Shown piece after piece: positions 13,864 to 23,725 of a stretch of 64,000 nucleotides of DNA (positions are counted from its first letter, which is position 1; the number at the start of each line of letters is the position of its first letter). Below the pieces are notes generated by a model. The model made no database searches, was not told the origin of the DNA, and saw only the letters and a program-made list of their open reading frames with translations. Made by a program: the position numbers and the translations under genes. The stretch comes from Chitinispirillales bacterium (GTDB lineage: Bacteria; Fibrobacterota; Chitinivibrionia; Chitinivibrionales; Chitinispirillaceae): NCBI GenBank assembly GCA_031254105.1, contig JAIRVB010000039.1:186001-250000 (forward strand), given 5' to 3'.

Positions 13864-15165
13864 ATGAGAGCAAATACCGGATCAGCAAAACTGTTTTTAA
13901 GTTTCGTGTTTATACTTACAGTAAGCATCTTATGCGCTGCATTTTTTGGGTGCGATCAGCCGAGTTTAATAGAATCAAATCCAGGAGAATCAGATCCAAA
14001 AATACAAACCTCTGATTTAATGCGGGGTATTAATCCCAGTCCGGCAGCCGCTGTAGAATTGGACGACCGGTTCCGCACCGCGGCGGCGAATTTTTCGCTG
14101 GACTTGTTCAGAGCTTCACTTTCAAATAAAGAGAACTCGCTGATTTCGCCCGCTTCGGTTTTACTTGCGCTTGCAATGGCGGCAAACGGCGCGGATGGAA
14201 ATACGCTTACGCAAATGGAGCGGGTTATCGGCGGAGGTATGTCTATCGCTGAGTTAAACGCCTATTTATACTCTTTCGTAAATGGTTTAGCCAGCCGGCC
14301 AAAGGAATCGCTTGACATCTCCAATTCTATCTGGTTCAGGAATTTTGGTTTTACACCGAACCGCGGTTTTTTGCAAACAAACGCTGACTATTTCGGCGCG
14401 GATGCGTTTGCCGCGCCATTTGACAATCAAACGGTAAATGACATAAACACATGGATAAGCGAAGCGACGGACGGGCTTATCAAGCAAATGCTGGACAAAA
14501 TCCCGGAGGAAGCGGTTTTATACTTAATAAATACGGTTCTGTTTGACGCTGAATGGAAATATATTTATGAAGACGGAAATATCAGCAGCGGAGAGTTTAC
14601 CAACCATAATAACCAGACGCAAACCGCCGAATTTATGCGCTCATCGGAAAGTTTGTATATACAGGGCAATGGCGCAACGGGCTTTATTAAACCGTACTAT
14701 AGCGGACGTTACAGCTTTGCCGCCATTTTACCGGATAATAATATATTTGATTTTATCGCCGCGTTGTCAGGCGAAGATTTTCTAAATCTTGTAAGAGATG
14801 CGCAGCCTGACAGAGTTAGGGCGGCGCTGCCCAAATTTGATTACGAATATGAAGTTTTAATGAACGACGCATTGAAATCAATGGGAATGGAAGACGCCTT
14901 TTGTGAAGAAACAGCGGATTTGTCTCGCATGGGTAATTGGATATATGGCGATTTGTTTATCAGCAATGTAATGCATAAAGCCAAAATTGCGGTTGATGTA
15001 CGGGGGACAAAAGCAGGTGCGGCTACAGTGGTAGAAGTATCAGGGCCGACAAGCGCCCCGCCTCCCCCTCGTTACGTTACACTTGACCGTCCATTTGTTT
15101 TCGCGATAATCGACAACACAAGCAATTTACCGTTATTTATTGGAACGCTTTTGTCGGTACCATAA
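13864..15165 (+). CDS. Serpin-family lipoprotein (protease inhibitor)
   Basis: A 433-residue serpin. The hydrophobic N terminus ends FFGC (Cys at about 29), a non-ideal but plausible lipobox. The fold is clear from NSLISPASVLLALAMAANGA-like helix B region, NTVLFDAEWKY, the GFIKPYYSGRYSFAAILPD strand, and the C-terminal DRPFVFAIIDNTSNLPLFIG. The reactive-loop hinge reads GTKAGAATVV, small residues as needed for an inhibitory serpin, followed by a short proline-rich stretch. It probably inhibits a serine or cysteine protease at the cell surface, perhaps a host or competitor enzyme. AAGGAGAG precedes the ATG. It is a single gene. Confidence 0.9.
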   Translation: MRANTGSAKLFLSFVFILTVSILCAAFFGCDQPSLIESNPGESDPKIQTSDLMRGINPSPAAAVELDDRFRTAAANFSLDLFRASLSNKENSLISPASVLLALAMAANGADGNTLTQMERVIGGGMSIAELNAYLYSFVNGLASRPKESLDISNSIWFRNFGFTPNRGFLQTNADYFGADAFAAPFDNQTVNDINTWISEATDGLIKQMLDKIPEEAVLYLINTVLFDAEWKYIYEDGNISSGEFTNHNNQTQTAEFMRSSESLYIQGNGATGFIKPYYSGRYSFAAILPDNNIFDFIAALSGEDFLNLVRDAQPDRVRAALPKFDYEYEVLMNDALKSMGMEDAFCEETADLSRMGNWIYGDLFISNVMHKAKIAVDVRGTKAGAATVVEVSGPTSAPPPPRYVTLDRPFVFAIIDNTSNLPLFIGTLLSVP

Positions 15166-15881: not shown

Positions 15882-17696
15882 ATGGGAGGCGTAATCAAAA
15901 CATTATTTTTCGCCGCGGTTTTCGCTGCTTCCGGTTTCGCCCAAATGTTTACCCAGGAGTCTCTGCTTGCTACCGGGATTCCGGTGATAAGCATTAATAC
16001 TGAGAACGGCGCCGGTATTACGAGTAAAGAGATCTACACAAGAATAGAGTCGTTTACACTTACCGATCCCTATAATTCCGGTAACAATATTTCGAGACTA
16101 AGGTCCGATGTGTCCCGCCCCGACAGGCCTGCCGATGAGATACGGGGACGGGGCAACGCCACCTGGGTAATGCCGCAGTGGGGACTTGATTATCCCAAGA
16201 AACCGTACCGGTTAAGGTTTACCGGGCAGATAGGGCTTCTTGGACTGCCCAGAGCGAGAAACTGGGTATTGCTGGCGGAGTACCGTGATCCGACATTATT
16301 GTATACTCCTCTGACATTTGAACTCGCTAAAAATGTTTTTGAGATGCCTTTCACTCATAATTATTTCCATGTCCATCTGTTTTTGAACGGGGATTACAGA
16401 GGCGTATATGGTTTGACGGAGCATAAGCAGGTGCATGAGAACAGAATAAATATTGATCCGGATGAGGGTTGGTATGTTGATATAGACAGTTATTATGATG
16501 AGGAACCCAAGTTTAGAACAATCCAGTACGGGCTTCCCATTATGATAAAATCTCCTGAGCCGCCGGGGGAAGCCAATATGAATAATCCGGCATACCAATT
16601 TGTAAGGGATGACTGGAACGGGTTGTGTAATTTGATGGCATACGGCGGTTTCCCTGAAAACGGCTACCGCGGTTTGATTGATATAAACGCTGTTGTTGAT
16701 TACTTAATGGTCAATGAAATAATACGGAACTTTGAACTCCTGGAGCCAAAGAGCATGCTGGCGTACAAAGACAAGGGTAAAAAAATAGCCCTGGGGCCGG
16801 TGTGGGATTTCGATTGCGGGTTTGGCTATGATTACAATTTTACCCATATTTACTTTACGAGATATGATGAACGCATCCCCCAAAATAACTTTTTACGGCG
16901 TTTTTATGATGATCCGGTTTTTACCGTCAGGTTCAGGGAACGCTGGAATGAAAAATACGCCCAAATCGCGGGTTTTACCGGGTATATTGACAATATAAGT
17001 CAAAAGATCGCCGCTGCCGCGGCTGAGGATACCAGAAGATGGTATATAAACGGGAATAATAACTTCAATACCGGTTATGTCTCTTCACAATACATAACCA
17101 GTCACAGCGAGGCGGCGGGTAATTTAAAGACCTGGTGGAACAACAGAGTTTCATGGCTGAATAACGAGTTCAATACCAACGGCAGATTTCAGGGTATGAT
17201 AAATATCTCTTCAGCCACGGTAACGCTTTCCGATACATCATACATTTACGACGGCGCTGAAAAACGTCCGCGGGCGGTTGTGGAGTCTTACGGCAAAATA
17301 CTTACAGAGGGGATCCACTATACAGCGGAATACGCGAACAATACGGATGTGGGCGACGCTGTGGTTACAATTACGGGGATGGGAGACTACTACAACGGTT
17401 CAAAAGATGTCGGCTTCACAATAATCTTATATTCTTCGGCGCGAACCGGACAAAACGCGGCCGGAACATATAAACCGCTAATGACGGTGAGGGGGAGGAC
17501 ACTTACAGTTAACGCTTCTCCCGGTTCAAAAGTAGGGGTGAGGGTGGTGAACATGAGGGGAAAGACAGCAGCGAGATTTAACGTGAAAGGCGGTTCAACC
17601 CTATCCTTAAAGAAGATCCCCGCGGGAGCGTATATCATAGAAGCAGAGAGGGCAAAAGAGGGGGTCAGAATGAGATTCGCGGCAGTGTTAAGATAG
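15882..17696 (+). CDS. Secreted CotH-family protein with C-terminal sorting-like domain
   Basis: A 604-residue exported protein: signal peptide to about residue 20 (ending SGFAQ), then a CotH domain (about 55-420) with RGRGNATW, KKPYRLRF, LLAEYRDPTLL, GVYGLTEHKQVHENRI and the GPVWDFDCGFGYD segment that in CotH kinases carries metal-binding Asp residues. Residues about 440-515 form a bacterial Ig-like/MBG-type module (SYIYDGAEKRPRAVV). The last 75 residues (VNMRGKTAARF, LKKIPAGAYII) resemble C-terminal sorting modules of secreted Fibrobacter and Bacteroidota proteins. Characterised CotH kinases phosphorylate proteins; the substrate here is unknown. GAGGGGGG precedes the ATG. Confidence 0.85.
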   Translation: MGGVIKTLFFAAVFAASGFAQMFTQESLLATGIPVISINTENGAGITSKEIYTRIESFTLTDPYNSGNNISRLRSDVSRPDRPADEIRGRGNATWVMPQWGLDYPKKPYRLRFTGQIGLLGLPRARNWVLLAEYRDPTLLYTPLTFELAKNVFEMPFTHNYFHVHLFLNGDYRGVYGLTEHKQVHENRINIDPDEGWYVDIDSYYDEEPKFRTIQYGLPIMIKSPEPPGEANMNNPAYQFVRDDWNGLCNLMAYGGFPENGYRGLIDINAVVDYLMVNEIIRNFELLEPKSMLAYKDKGKKIALGPVWDFDCGFGYDYNFTHIYFTRYDERIPQNNFLRRFYDDPVFTVRFRERWNEKYAQIAGFTGYIDNISQKIAAAAAEDTRRWYINGNNNFNTGYVSSQYITSHSEAAGNLKTWWNNRVSWLNNEFNTNGRFQGMINISSATVTLSDTSYIYDGAEKRPRAVVESYGKILTEGIHYTAEYANNTDVGDAVVTITGMGDYYNGSKDVGFTIILYSSARTGQNAAGTYKPLMTVRGRTLTVNASPGSKVGVRVVNMRGKTAARFNVKGGSTLSLKKIPAGAYIIEAERAKEGVRMRFAAVLR

Positions 17697-19807: not shown

Positions 19808-19878
19808 TATAATGTAGAATGTACAAATAAACCACAACAGAAAGGGATCTCTCTTCTCATTATACATTATACATTTAT
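19808..19878. repeat. Seven-base-period repeat, TATAATG/CATTATA words
   Basis: Between the two convergent genes, TATAATG-TAGAATG-TACAAAT (19808-19828) is followed by CATTATA-CATTATA-CATTTAT (19858-19878). The two runs are inverted relative to each other and both have a period of seven, so the spacer could fold as a bidirectional terminator. Confidence 0.65.
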
Positions 19879-22283
19879 TAAAACTTTCCCACACTAAACC
19901 CCGCGTAAAATCCCGGCCATATACGCGCGTTGTGATCTTTGTAGCTTACGTTGCGGTATCTTTTATGGTGCTTGGGTTTGATTGGAATATCGCCGTATTT
20001 ATCTTCGATGATTCCATTTACGCTTACGCCGGCGCTAAGGGCAAGGATTTTTACGGGGCTGTAGTTTAGCCCAAAACGGAGTTTGTACTCAATGTTATTA
20101 TACCAGTGTTCCTCTATTTCATCTCTTAAATATTCCCACTGCTCATCGCTCCATTTGTAATTATTTTTTTCCCTTAGTTCGTTCCATTTATCCCAGTTCA
20201 TCCTTTTTGTGGGATTTTCGGTATATGTCTGAAGCCAGGCGAAATCGAGGTTAAGAAAGAAGGGCGCTCTCATCCCAAAGCGCGTTCCAAATCCCGCGCC
20301 CCATGTTTTAGGCCACCGGTCGTACCACTCAAAACCGCCCTCAGGTATCTGGCTGTATTCAAATAATGTATAGAGCCACGGGGTTCCGGTGTGAAGTTTT
20401 ACACCGGTTCTGCCTGTTTCATCGTAGTAAAAATGCATGTCCATAATGCCGTTGCCTACAATATTTATAACACCGATGGGCGTTTTTTCACTGTATCCGG
20501 AGATATTTACCACGCCGATCTGGCGCTTTGTTTTACCTGTAATGTTAACCACTCCGATCTGATCATCTCCGGTACCCGTAATGTTGGTTACTCCGATTTG
20601 ACCGTAATTTGCTTTTCCGGCGAGGTTTACTACCCCCATCTGTCCGTAACCCGTTTCTCCAGCGATGTTTACCACACCGCCCTGAACATAGCCCGCGTTT
20701 TTCACGATGTTTACTACACCGCTCTGAAAATAGCCTACGTTTTCCGCGATGTTTACCACACCGCCCTGAACATAGCCTACGTTTTTCGCGATGTTTACTT
20801 GTCCGCCCTGAACATAGCCGACATTGCCGGCTATGTTAACCACTCCGCCCTGAAGGGCAACCCTCTGAGCAAGGTTTACAACTCCTCCCTGAATGCTGCT
20901 GTCGCCATGCGCGGCAAAATTAAATATTGACCCCTGTGCGCCGTAAAAGCGTCCGAGAGCGATATTGGAGAAATAACTAAGCTGCATTCCCATCATATCT
21001 TTGTGAGCTATATTCATAAGGGCGATTTGAATTCCGGAATATTCGGCTCGGGCTTCGTTAAGAAAAAGCGAGAGCTGAACTCCGTTTGCCGGAACGTCGT
21101 TAAAAGTATAGGCTATATAGCTGTTGAATTTGAAAGGCGCCGCGCGCGCGGAGTCAAGCAGCGGATTTGCGCTTTGCGTATTTTCTTCGTCTTCTCTGTC
21201 AGCGTTGTAACTATTGTCATCATTTCCCCGTTTTCTGGTAATTTCGCGTCTTACCGGTTTTAGCATATTTGGAGTAAGAATAACTTTCTCGCCGCTGCCG
21301 AGCGTAAGGTTTTCCGCGGTATATGACGCGGTATGTTCCATATGTATGCTGTATCTGCCTTCAGGAAGGCCGAGTTCTATTGTACGTCCTTTGTTTTTGT
21401 AAAGTTCAGCGATTAAAAATCCCTTTTCATCGCGGATAAAAAGACGGCCTTCAAGATCTGTATCAAGCGTAAGGCCCGAATTTATCTGACGTACGTCTGT
21501 CATTACCACATCGCCTGTTCCTGTAAGATTTATATCGCGGCTTGGATGCTGAGCGCCGCCTATTGTAGACTGCGTACTCTGAAGAGTTTCGTTAAAAGCG
21601 AACTGATACGCTTCGCTGAGAGTGACTGTTCCGCTGCCTGTCATATCCGCGGCTCCGCGCAGTCCGCTGACAAGCGCGTGGGTGAAGAAACTTCCCCGGA
21701 TACGGTCGCTCTCCTGACTAACTTCCGATTCGCTTGATGATGTTAAAAAAGCGTAGCCTTTCATGTCGGAACTCGCGTCTGAGAGAAACGCGGGACGCAC
21801 TACGCCGCCCTTTACGCGGGTGATTGCGCCTGAACCGCACGCGTCAAGGATCGCGACCTTCAGATCAGCGTTCAGGTTATCAACCTGTTTACGAAAATCG
21901 GGCCACATCATAAGCTCTTTTCCAAGCCGTAAACCTTTTTCGTCAGCGTGGCCGCTGTAGTAGACGATGATCTCCTTTCGTCCGTTCTTATACCGCGGGT
22001 CGTTCATCTTTTTCTCAATATTGGAAAAACCTTGCCGTATCTCAGCTATGCCCGGATCGCTTAAAAAGACCTTGTTCCTCTCATCAATCCCGCCCATTTC
22101 AGTCAGCACCGCGGCAAAAGCCTGCGCGTCGGTTACCGCGTAACGCAGAGTAGCGCGTCCGCTGCCGCCGTCATTCGCTCCTGCCGCAAGTAAAAAGCGG
22201 TGAACCTCTTTTGTAGAGGCGCCGCTGATAGAAACCGTCAGCAAAACCGCCATTATTGTTACTGCCGCAATTTTGTATCTCAT
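19878..22283 (-). CDS. Secreted caspase-fold (C14) protein with beta-solenoid repeats
   Basis: An 801-residue exported protein with a signal peptide of about 22 residues. A caspase/metacaspase-type C14 domain (about 27-262) keeps both catalytic residues: His112 in YYSGHADEKG and Cys149 in ILDACGSG. Residues about 265-345 form a beta-rich module, then a charged linker. From about 415 to 612 there are roughly 13 copies of a 13-14 residue repeat, consensus QGGVVNIAxNVGYV, predicted to stack as a beta-solenoid and resembling LA_2272-type surface repeats. The last 180 residues are beta-rich with many aromatics and may form an outer-membrane barrel-like end. It lies 31 bases after the anti-sigma gene in one operon with the ECF sigma factor. 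Confidence 0.85.
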   Translation of the reverse strand: MRYKIAAVTIMAVLLTVSISGASTKEVHRFLLAAGANDGGSGRATLRYAVTDAQAFAAVLTEMGGIDERNKVFLSDPGIAEIRQGFSNIEKKMNDPRYKNGRKEIIVYYSGHADEKGLRLGKELMMWPDFRKQVDNLNADLKVAILDACGSGAITRVKGGVVRPAFLSDASSDMKGYAFLTSSSESEVSQESDRIRGSFFTHALVSGLRGAADMTGSGTVTLSEAYQFAFNETLQSTQSTIGGAQHPSRDINLTGTGDVVMTDVRQINSGLTLDTDLEGRLFIRDEKGFLIAELYKNKGRTIELGLPEGRYSIHMEHTASYTAENLTLGSGEKVILTPNMLKPVRREITRKRGNDDNSYNADREDEENTQSANPLLDSARAAPFKFNSYIAYTFNDVPANGVQLSLFLNEARAEYSGIQIALMNIAHKDMMGMQLSYFSNIALGRFYGAQGSIFNFAAHGDSSIQGGVVNLAQRVALQGGVVNIAGNVGYVQGGQVNIAKNVGYVQGGVVNIAENVGYFQSGVVNIVKNAGYVQGGVVNIAGETGYGQMGVVNLAGKANYGQIGVTNITGTGDDQIGVVNITGKTKRQIGVVNISGYSEKTPIGVINIVGNGIMDMHFYYDETGRTGVKLHTGTPWLYTLFEYSQIPEGGFEWYDRWPKTWGAGFGTRFGMRAPFFLNLDFAWLQTYTENPTKRMNWDKWNELREKNNYKWSDEQWEYLRDEIEEHWYNNIEYKLRFGLNYSPVKILALSAGVSVNGIIEDKYGDIPIKPKHHKRYRNVSYKDHNARIWPGFYAGFSVGKF

Positions 22284-22314
22284 CCGATAGCCCCTTTCGG
22301 TTAGTTTCTAAATG

Positions 22315-23181
22315 TCAAATTAAAGCGTGTTTTTGTAAAGTAAAAATTGTAATCTGCTGATCTTTGGGTAATGCTGGTTTGTCAGTCGCCTTTTTTACTT
22401 TTTGTATTGATTGCGTTATCGCGTCTATGTCAAAGTTTTCCTGTGAGGTGACTAAGTAAAAAATTTCAAACCTGGGAGCGTCGTCAAGCTGATATGAATG
22501 GGGGAGGGCTACCGGTCTGCCTGGTGTCAACGCCGCGGCTTTGCCATAATTCCCTGATAAGTGTACTGTTACAACACCATTGCCATCCAGGCTGACAATT
22601 GTCCCATAGCAGCTCTTTGGTACAAGGTAGCGCAGTTGGATCACATCTCCCTGAGAAACTCCCGTTCCCGGATCAAGTTTTTCAGCCGCTTCGCCGCTTT
22701 TGCGCCATACTTCCAAGCTGGATTCAATACCCTTTATACGAATACCGTTGTCGGAGAGAAGCGCGGCGGCCTCGTCTTTAGAGGAGTTGGGTGAAAATAT
22801 ATACAGTGGAAGAATTAACAAAACAGCGGCGCATGTAAGAGCCGCGGGCGCCCAGCGGGGAAGCCCCTGTTTCCATCCCTTCCAAAAAGAGAGGCGGGTT
22901 GCGTTTGTATGGGAGCCGCGCGCAGCTTCCTTACTGCCTGCGCGGGCCTCCTTTATCATCCTGCTCAGAGGATATTTTTCAAGCATCTCCTCGTTACTTG
23001 AGCGTAGAGCGGTTATTCTTTGGCGTAAAGCGGTATCTGACCGCTCAAGTTCAGCTATCGCGTTAAGTTCATCCGCTGAAAGCTCGCCTAAAATGAAACG
23101 CTCAAGCTTCCAGTTTGGAATTTTTTTATTTGTATCAGCGTTACCGTTTCTTTTAACATTTTCATCCATAATTTTATCCAT
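22315..23181 (-). CDS. Anti-sigma-like membrane protein
   Basis: About 288 residues. The N-terminal ~90 residues (KLERFILGELSADELNAIAE) look like an anti-sigma/zinc-finger-like cytoplasmic domain, lacking the classical HxxxCxxC. One membrane helix follows at about 131-149 (LTCAAVLLILPLYIF), then a periplasmic domain of about 145 residues that resembles DUF4384-type modules (VSQGDVIQLRYLV, GVVTVHLSG). I chose the ATG at 23181 (MDKIMDENVK), preceded by GGAGG and just after the sigma stop, over an upstream ATG overlapping it. The partner is probably the ECF factor encoded immediately before. Confidence 0.75.
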   Translation of the reverse strand: MDKIMDENVKRNGNADTNKKIPNWKLERFILGELSADELNAIAELERSDTALRQRITALRSSNEEMLEKYPLSRMIKEARAGSKEAARGSHTNATRLSFWKGWKQGLPRWAPAALTCAAVLLILPLYIFSPNSSKDEAAALLSDNGIRIKGIESSLEVWRKSGEAAEKLDPGTGVSQGDVIQLRYLVPKSCYGTIVSLDGNGVVTVHLSGNYGKAAALTPGRPVALPHSYQLDDAPRFEIFYLVTSQENFDIDAITQSIQKVKKATDKPALPKDQQITIFTLQKHALI

Positions 23182-23182
23182 C

Positions 23183-23689
23183 TTATATACCCTCCAGTTC
23201 AACCAGAGTTTCACGCAGGCCGCGTAAGCGTTTACGCACGCCGCTTACCGACATTTTTACCTCGCGGGCTGTTTCCTCAAGCGTCATTCCATCAACTAAA
23301 TGAAGTACAGCGATTGTACGGCTTGATTGCGGGGAGCGGTCAAAAAGTTTTCTCAGCACGCTTCGCGCCCCGTGTTTACTCTCCATATCACCGCCGCAGG
23401 CTATTTTTTCCAAAAGCGGATCAGTGTCTGCGCAATCTCCGCGGCGTTTGTAATCCCGCAGTTTGTTCATGCAGTGATTAGTCGCCATTGTCCATAAAAG
23501 GCTTGATGGGTATTCAGCCTTCAGACGGTGCCTGTTCTCAAGCAATTTCACAAATACCTCCTGTGTGGCGTCAGCGGCTCTCTGGGCGTCGCGAAGCAGA
23601 TGCATGCAGCGCCTTTGCACCATTGGGCCGTATTTCCTGAAAAGCGCTTCCGCATCCATATCCTGGATGGCAGTTTCTGTATCGTTCAT
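23183..23689 (-). CDS. ECF-type RNA polymerase sigma factor
   Basis: A 168-residue sigma-70 family protein with region 2 (about 15-80: DAQRAADATQEVFVKLLENR, the -10 recognising helix) and region 4 (about 115-165: MTLEETAREVKMSVSGVRKR, the -35 recognising helix-turn-helix), and no region 3, as in ECF factors. The linker (about 85-110) is charged. It is the first gene of an operon with the anti-sigma-like and caspase-fold genes. AAAGG lies five bases before the ATG. A possible self-type promoter is at 23699-23725. The signal it answers to is unknown. Confidence 0.9.
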   Translation of the reverse strand: MNDTETAIQDMDAEALFRKYGPMVQRRCMHLLRDAQRAADATQEVFVKLLENRHRLKAEYPSSLLWTMATNHCMNKLRDYKRRGDCADTDPLLEKIACGGDMESKHGARSVLRKLFDRSPQSSRTIAVLHLVDGMTLEETAREVKMSVSGVRKRLRGLRETLVELEGI

Positions 23690-23698
23690 ATACCTTTA

Positions 23699-23725
23699 AC
23701 ACCGTTCATTGAGAGATTTGTTACC
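23699..23725 (-). promoter_or_regulatory. Candidate ECF-type promoter for the sigma/anti-sigma/caspase operon
   Basis: On the minus strand GGTAAC (23720-23725) and CGGTGT (23699-23704) are separated by 15 bases, a layout common in promoters read by ECF factors, just upstream of the sigma gene. This would allow autoregulation. It is a by-eye call. Confidence 0.35.

Follow-up and report, generated by a model that had tools for sequence, protein, structure and literature searches.

What would bring a sigma factor, its inhibitor and a secreted caspase together in one operon? This question is raised by a locus at 19878-23689 on the minus strand of a 64,000 nucleotide stretch (referred to here as the window) of contig JAIRVB010000039.1 from a Chitinispirillales bacterium. 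The window lies in contig C15 of genome G000, and its recorded family-level relatives are Chitinispirillales metagenome-assembled genomes (MAGs) of the Fibrobacterota. The locus encodes, in this order, an extracytoplasmic function (ECF) sigma factor, an anti-sigma factor with one transmembrane (TM) helix and an exported C14 caspase. Sequence comparisons strongly support the three genes as a real, co-inherited module. The reading we favor, with a probability of roughly 0.4, is that they form a self-amplifying envelope signaling module in which the caspase would make the site-1 cut in the anti-sigma factor encoded beside it.

Organization and conservation of the operon

The sigma gene (23183..23689) encodes a short protein of 168 aa containing regions 2 and 4 only (Pfam Sigma70_r2, 1e-11; NCBIfam sigma70-ECF, 1.9e-18), and its TIGR02937 score of 66.7 bits, against a cut-off of 42.9, places it among the ECF (group IV) factors. 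Its stop codon at 23185-23183 is followed one base on, at 23181, by the ATG of the membrane-bound anti-sigma gene (22315..23181, 288 aa); the GTG start at 23214 in the list of open reading frames was merely a longest-frame choice. The anti-sigma stop ends at 22315, and 31 bases further, at 22283, lies the ATG of the caspase gene (19878..22283, 801 aa). All three genes are on the minus strand, and these coordinates agree with the initial annotation, which had described the sigma stop as adjoining the anti-sigma start with the caspase gene 31 bases on.

A caspase match was encoded in 29 of 41 related genomes, and among 40 loci of the same phylum the order sigma, anti-sigma, caspase was present wherever the flanks were long enough, in nearly every complete locus. 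In several of these 40 loci the anti-sigma factor fell below the threshold of a single-sequence search, yet a gene-sized gap existed at its place, and a profile search recovered the anti-sigma factor in some of them. Most of the 79 named loci contain the trio; the carriers include Fibrobacter (among them F. intestinalis ATCC 43854 and F. succinogenes MAGs), Chitinispirillales and Latescibacterota, as well as one Myxococcales MAG and one Acidobacteria MAG, for both of which contamination is possible. The anti-sigma profile matches that have the periplasmic domain all adjoin a caspase match, except three at contig ends. Such repeated occurrence of one gene order throughout the phylum goes far beyond what chance would give. 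The initial annotation had proposed that a dedicated protease system would be unlikely if homologues of the three genes never occurred together or if the catalytic dyad was lost in close relatives; the genes do recur together, and the dyad is never lost.

Promoter and predicted regulon

A predicted ECF-type promoter, GGTAACA-N16-GTGTTAAA (23695..23725, minus strand), ends 5 bases short of the start codon of the sigma gene and is the sole copy in the window. The motif shared by the regions upstream of the sigma genes is GTRACA-N16-GTGTTWNA, with the GTGTT end usually 8 bases before the start codon. Strict matches were found in 68 of 103 upstream regions, compared with 0.06 after shuffling; since the 103 regions include duplicate loci, the distinct matches number 55. 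The sigma genes of Fibrobacterota, Latescibacterota and Acidobacteria (a MAG), three phyla in all, have this motif at their start; more distant Chitinispirillia trios have TGAGCG...CGTC-like sites (15 of 25, versus 0.29 in shuffles). Motif conservation predicts an autoregulated bipartite ECF promoter, and because the operon carries it, the ECF factor very probably drives its own operon, a point that the initial annotation had singled out for testing.

In Fibrimonadales the caspase gene no longer adjoins the sigma gene. Five genomes nevertheless have the GTRACA-N16-GTGTT motif directly upstream of the caspase, and three others have one-base variants of it (GTATCA) there. Of the 8 genomes searched, 6 have the sigma/anti-sigma pair at another place, preceded by the motif or by a variant that differs in one base. 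Since the caspase gene is separated in this group and yet keeps the motif, this is the best evidence that the sigma factor controls the caspase gene itself.

Across 877 kb of loci, partly from near-identical relatives, the full motif had 99 matches and the reversed control none. Sigma genes accounted for 54 of the matches, the TonB-dependent receptor downstream of the caspase for 13, a DUF3450-type protein for 9, caspases for 8 and an FMN-reductase-like gene for 7. The window's own genome, searched by motif pattern only, contained 7 matches against 0 in the control: at the window sigma gene, at a sigma paralogue on contig C29, at an ExbB-ExbD-ExbD-TonB-like cluster, at a fusion of TonB_C with a TonB-dependent receptor (whose orthologue in genome G019 likewise has the motif), at one gene for a periplasmic protein and at two lipoprotein-like genes. 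In G040, a genome of the same phylum, the genes downstream of the caspase encode, in order, a receptor, a lipoprotein, a DUF3450 protein and ExbB-like, ExbD-like, TonB-like and TPR-like proteins. The ExbB of contig C23, both receptors and DUF3450 were identified by Pfam, and the other regulon genes by eye from their sequences. TonB or TonB-dependent receptor targets were found in two lineages. At L171:1160-4000 and L176:4482-7385, TonB-dependent receptors that have a domain of the TonB C-terminal type close to their N-terminus are encoded under the ECF motif.

The promoter and the regulon motif are strongly supported by these counts. Since ExbB-ExbD-TonB, TonB-dependent receptor and lipoprotein genes have the motif upstream as well, the data do not bear out the supposition of the initial annotation that the caspase would be the sole, dedicated target; the output of the sigma factor appears, from the distribution of its motif, to be the caspase together with a TonB system.

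The exported caspase

The caspase gave a hit to Peptidase_C14 (PF00656, 6.6e-10) above the Pfam cut-off, has procaspase-7 and metacaspase among its fold matches, and has the dyad of the C14/orthocaspase fold. A sequence search of the PDB returned metacaspases only, mostly over their N-terminal half. Catalytic His112, within a YYSGH motif (21948..21950), and Cys149, within a DACGSG motif (21837..21839), are invariant across 41 sequences, and Cys149 is the sole cysteine in the protein, which is consistent with export. A signal peptide of about residues 1-22 (22218..22283; predicted helix 2-19) is indicated by a hydrophobic N-terminus, and a signal-peptide-like start is kept in nearly all homologues, so that both an intact dyad and export are strongly supported, in agreement with the initial annotation. 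The same annotation had counted about 13 QGGVVNIA-type repeats ahead of a beta-rich end; repeats and beta-rich end are both present, and we count 12 units, mostly of 14 residues, at residues 450-609 (20457..20936; pLDDT > 90), which may form either a solenoid or strands of the barrel.

The C-terminal beta-rich region (19881..20447) ends in GFYAGFSVGKF. A terminal phenylalanine was found in 65 of 79 caspase homologues, within a pattern such as GFYAGLTVGRF, which is typical for outer-membrane barrels. In a fold search with modest E-values, whose hits are given without the stretch they align to, procaspase-7 and metacaspase were on top and the eight-stranded barrels of OprF, OmpA, NspA and Ail lower down. 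We conclude from the terminal pattern and these matches that the C-terminus probably forms an outer-membrane barrel.

A second sigma/anti-sigma/caspase operon exists in the window's genome (L021:5482-8691, on contig C29) and has the same promoter motif. Its caspase lacks the QGGVVNIA repeats and retains the C-terminal beta region. The idea that the repeats are essential was dropped, as they are missing in this paralogue, and the short homologues L027, L028 and L030 (564-595 aa) are either without them or too short to contain them. Three Latescibacterota loci (L135:2627-7635, L137 and L139) have two caspase genes of the family each, with another gene between them. The window caspase is not a member of the EACC1-associated caspases (NF047832; 51 bits, 140 required), and its partial resemblance to the VC2662 family (NF047437; 34.9 bits, 140 required; best stretch residues 400-501) likewise falls short of membership. 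Elsewhere in the window, on the plus strand, a full-length serpin (13864-15165; Pfam 1.6e-80) lies 4.7 kb from the caspase operon and has no promoter motif; some serpins act as caspase inhibitors. The gene at 15882-17696 (plus strand) encodes a CotH kinase protein whose C-terminus weakly resembles a secretion tail.

The anti-sigma factor and its R-x-K-G motif

The AlphaFold model of the anti-sigma factor consists of helices at residues 23-91, a TM helix at 111-128 (22798..22851), a disordered stem at 130-148 (pLDDT < 50) and, starting near residue 150, a beta domain modeled with confidence. A TM-like segment is present in 88 of 88 homologues. The N-terminal domain, the single TM helix and the position next to the sigma gene in complete loci are those of a class I anti-sigma factor, although the N-terminal domain of the window protein has no zinc ligands; zf-HC2 was found in a distant homologue (L035). 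The periplasmic beta domain (residues 155-284; 22330..22719; pLDDT mostly > 90) is DUF4384-like, with a Pfam match of 1.8e-4 that is below the cut-off in the window protein and above it in some homologues. A PDB fold search with the anti-sigma factor gave no match at E <= 0.001, the best being generic beta-sandwiches.

Where the disordered periplasmic stem meets the folded domain lies R148-I-K-G151 (22729..22740), a candidate site-1 cleavage site by its conservation and position. R-x-K-G was present in 82 of 88 distinct anti-sigma factors and the lysine in all 88, and in alignment A3 no residue between the N-terminal and beta domains is invariant other than R148 and K150. Four sigma/anti-sigma paralogue pairs that have no caspase (L217:801-1867, L218:3183-4951, L219:2609-3624 and L220:4072-4524) have neither the DUF4384-like domain nor R-x-K-G; the L218 protein has a different long extension. 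R-x-K-G is also missing from two DUF4384 proteins of the phylum that are unrelated to sigma factors, one of them encoded at L187 directly before a secreted caspase gene.

Comparison with known systems

The initial annotation had called the arrangement non-standard, and this needs qualification: operons of sigma-70 factors with metacaspases, the same gene association as here, were noted in 2012 by Asplund-Samuelsson et al. (PMC3501461) for four of five M. xanthus metacaspases and in Anaeromyxobacter, Haliangium, Sorangium, Ralstonia and Fibrobacter. The term anti-sigma occurs nowhere in that text, and the passages concerned do not describe promoter, regulon, topology or mechanism. In the literature we searched, with subscription papers mostly outside it, no account was found of the anti-sigma factor, promoter, regulon, mechanism or candidate cleavage site; we claim no priority.

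The type III-E CRISPR Craspase (Csx29, Csx30 and CASP-sigma) also combines a caspase-like protease, a sigma inhibitor and an ECF sigma factor in one locus, and cleavage there lifts the inhibition of sigma (PMC10028731). Craspase, however, is cytoplasmic, RNA-guided and has a CHAT protease, whereas here an exported protease accompanies a membrane anti-sigma factor; the window protein is C14 and not CHAT, while Cas7-11 and arrays were not specifically searched. Cell-surface signaling of the FecI-FecR-FecA type shares with our system the ECF sigma factor, the one-TM anti-sigma factor and the TonB-dependent receptor targets, and involves regulated proteolysis whose site-1 protease is still unidentified (PMC11637429, PMC9249621). 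It differs in that here a DUF4384-like domain replaces the FecR C-terminal domain and a caspase occupies the operon's third place; no FecR or STN match was found in the anti-sigma factors or in the two TonB-dependent receptors tested. The module therefore belongs to neither type, though it may work like both. In the RseA/DegS/RseP sigma-E pathway, too, a one-TM anti-sigma factor is cut at site 1 in response to an envelope event (PMC10028731), but DegS is an inner-membrane PDZ serine protease, while the candidate here is a caspase with an outer-membrane-like domain. R-x-K-G is the candidate site for RseA-like site-1/site-2 proteolysis. Orthocaspases such as MaOC1 share the C14 p20-type domain, the His-Cys dyad and DUF4384 fusions (PMC8283722), unlike the present protein in that the latter is exported, linked to a sigma factor and equipped with beta repeats and a barrel-like C-terminus.

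Proposed mechanism and alternatives

The caspase, the DUF4384-like domain and R-x-K-G are conserved jointly, and the last two are absent where there is no caspase, a pattern that the site-1 protease model would explain. Orthocaspases and metacaspases, the non-animal homologues of caspases, prefer a basic P1 residue and cut after Arg or Lys, and DUF4384 is fused to orthocaspases in 23 cyanobacterial cases (PMC8283722). There is also the precedent of the caspase-like Csx29, which cuts the sigma inhibitor Csx30 (PMC10028731). We infer the following sequence of events. In the resting state the ECF factor would be held at the inner membrane by the anti-sigma factor, and the caspase, exported at a low level, would be anchored in the outer membrane by its C-terminal barrel, with the repeats where present, leaving the protease domain in the periplasm. 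The trigger may be a change around the caspase, such as ligand binding to the repeats or to the barrel or, as a guess, a barrel that fails to assemble. The active caspase would then reach the anti-sigma stem and cut after the lysine of R-x-K-G, so that the DUF4384-like domain is lost; intramembrane proteolysis would release the sigma factor, which would transcribe its own operon, giving positive feedback and more caspase, together with the regulon of TonB-ExbB-ExbD, TonB-dependent receptor and lipoprotein genes. The fuller version, in which an outer-membrane-anchored caspase is a dedicated site-1 protease that possibly reports failed barrel assembly or occupancy and activates a TonB uptake regulon, seems somewhat less probable than cleavage itself. 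It would transfer the logic of Craspase to the envelope, in a form common among Fibrobacterota and found in other phyla.

Several observations weigh against cleavage by the caspase. The position of R-x-K-G is fixed relative to the folded domain but varies from 7 to 45 residues from the membrane, and therefore the motif may be structural, as a first strand or docking site. The caspase-negative comparisons number only six, and the protease domain is poorly modeled at residues 151-267. The distance matrices of the three genes correlate in every pair (r 0.93-0.96), which is uninformative on coevolution since shared ancestry alone could explain the covariation. That the caspase is itself a member of the regulon also fits a pure effector. 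It might then be output only, an Arg/Lys-specific protease of the outer membrane or surface that acts on external or surface proteins and is co-induced with TonB-dependent uptake, while a standard site-1 protease triggers the anti-sigma factor. Clan CD gingipains have such a nutritional and surface role. The joining of the caspase with TonB, ExbB-ExbD and receptor genes is explained as well by this alternative as by cleavage, the decoupled caspases retain the promoter alone, and the hosts are gut and fiber-degrading bacteria. It leaves unexplained, however, why this type of anti-sigma factor is almost constantly paired with a neighboring caspase gene and why the periplasmic domain and R-x-K-G are missing from the paralogues that have no caspase; we regard it as possible, with some doubt.

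The DUF4384-like domain could instead bind and restrain the caspase without being cut, with an outside signal releasing both protease and sigma factor. This would accord with the fusions of DUF4384 to orthocaspases (PMC8283722) and with locus L187:3-2196, where the gene of a secreted DUF4384 protein directly precedes that of a secreted caspase, with no sigma factor, but restraint does not predict that R-x-K-G would be conserved where the flexible stem ends, and we consider this alternative unlikely. A role in defense or programmed cell death, suggested by the caspase fold, by a weak PADLOC caspase match and by the ECF genes near caspase-EACC2 systems (PMC8195603), seems very improbable, given an exported caspase, a module that is spread widely and not patchily through the phylum, a regulon of TonB and envelope genes, and a PADLOC match of just 20 bits over part of the domain.

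Implications

Little is settled about what bacterial caspases do beyond cell death and CRISPR defense, and several anti-sigma factors still await the identification of their site-1 protease. The module described here sets out, in one conserved unit, a caspase, its probable substrate, the regulator that would be released, a promoter and a TonB regulon, and the proposal can be tested at the level of single residues (C149 and R148/K150). In addition, a promoter signature has been gained for an important fiber-degrading phylum of the gut and rumen.

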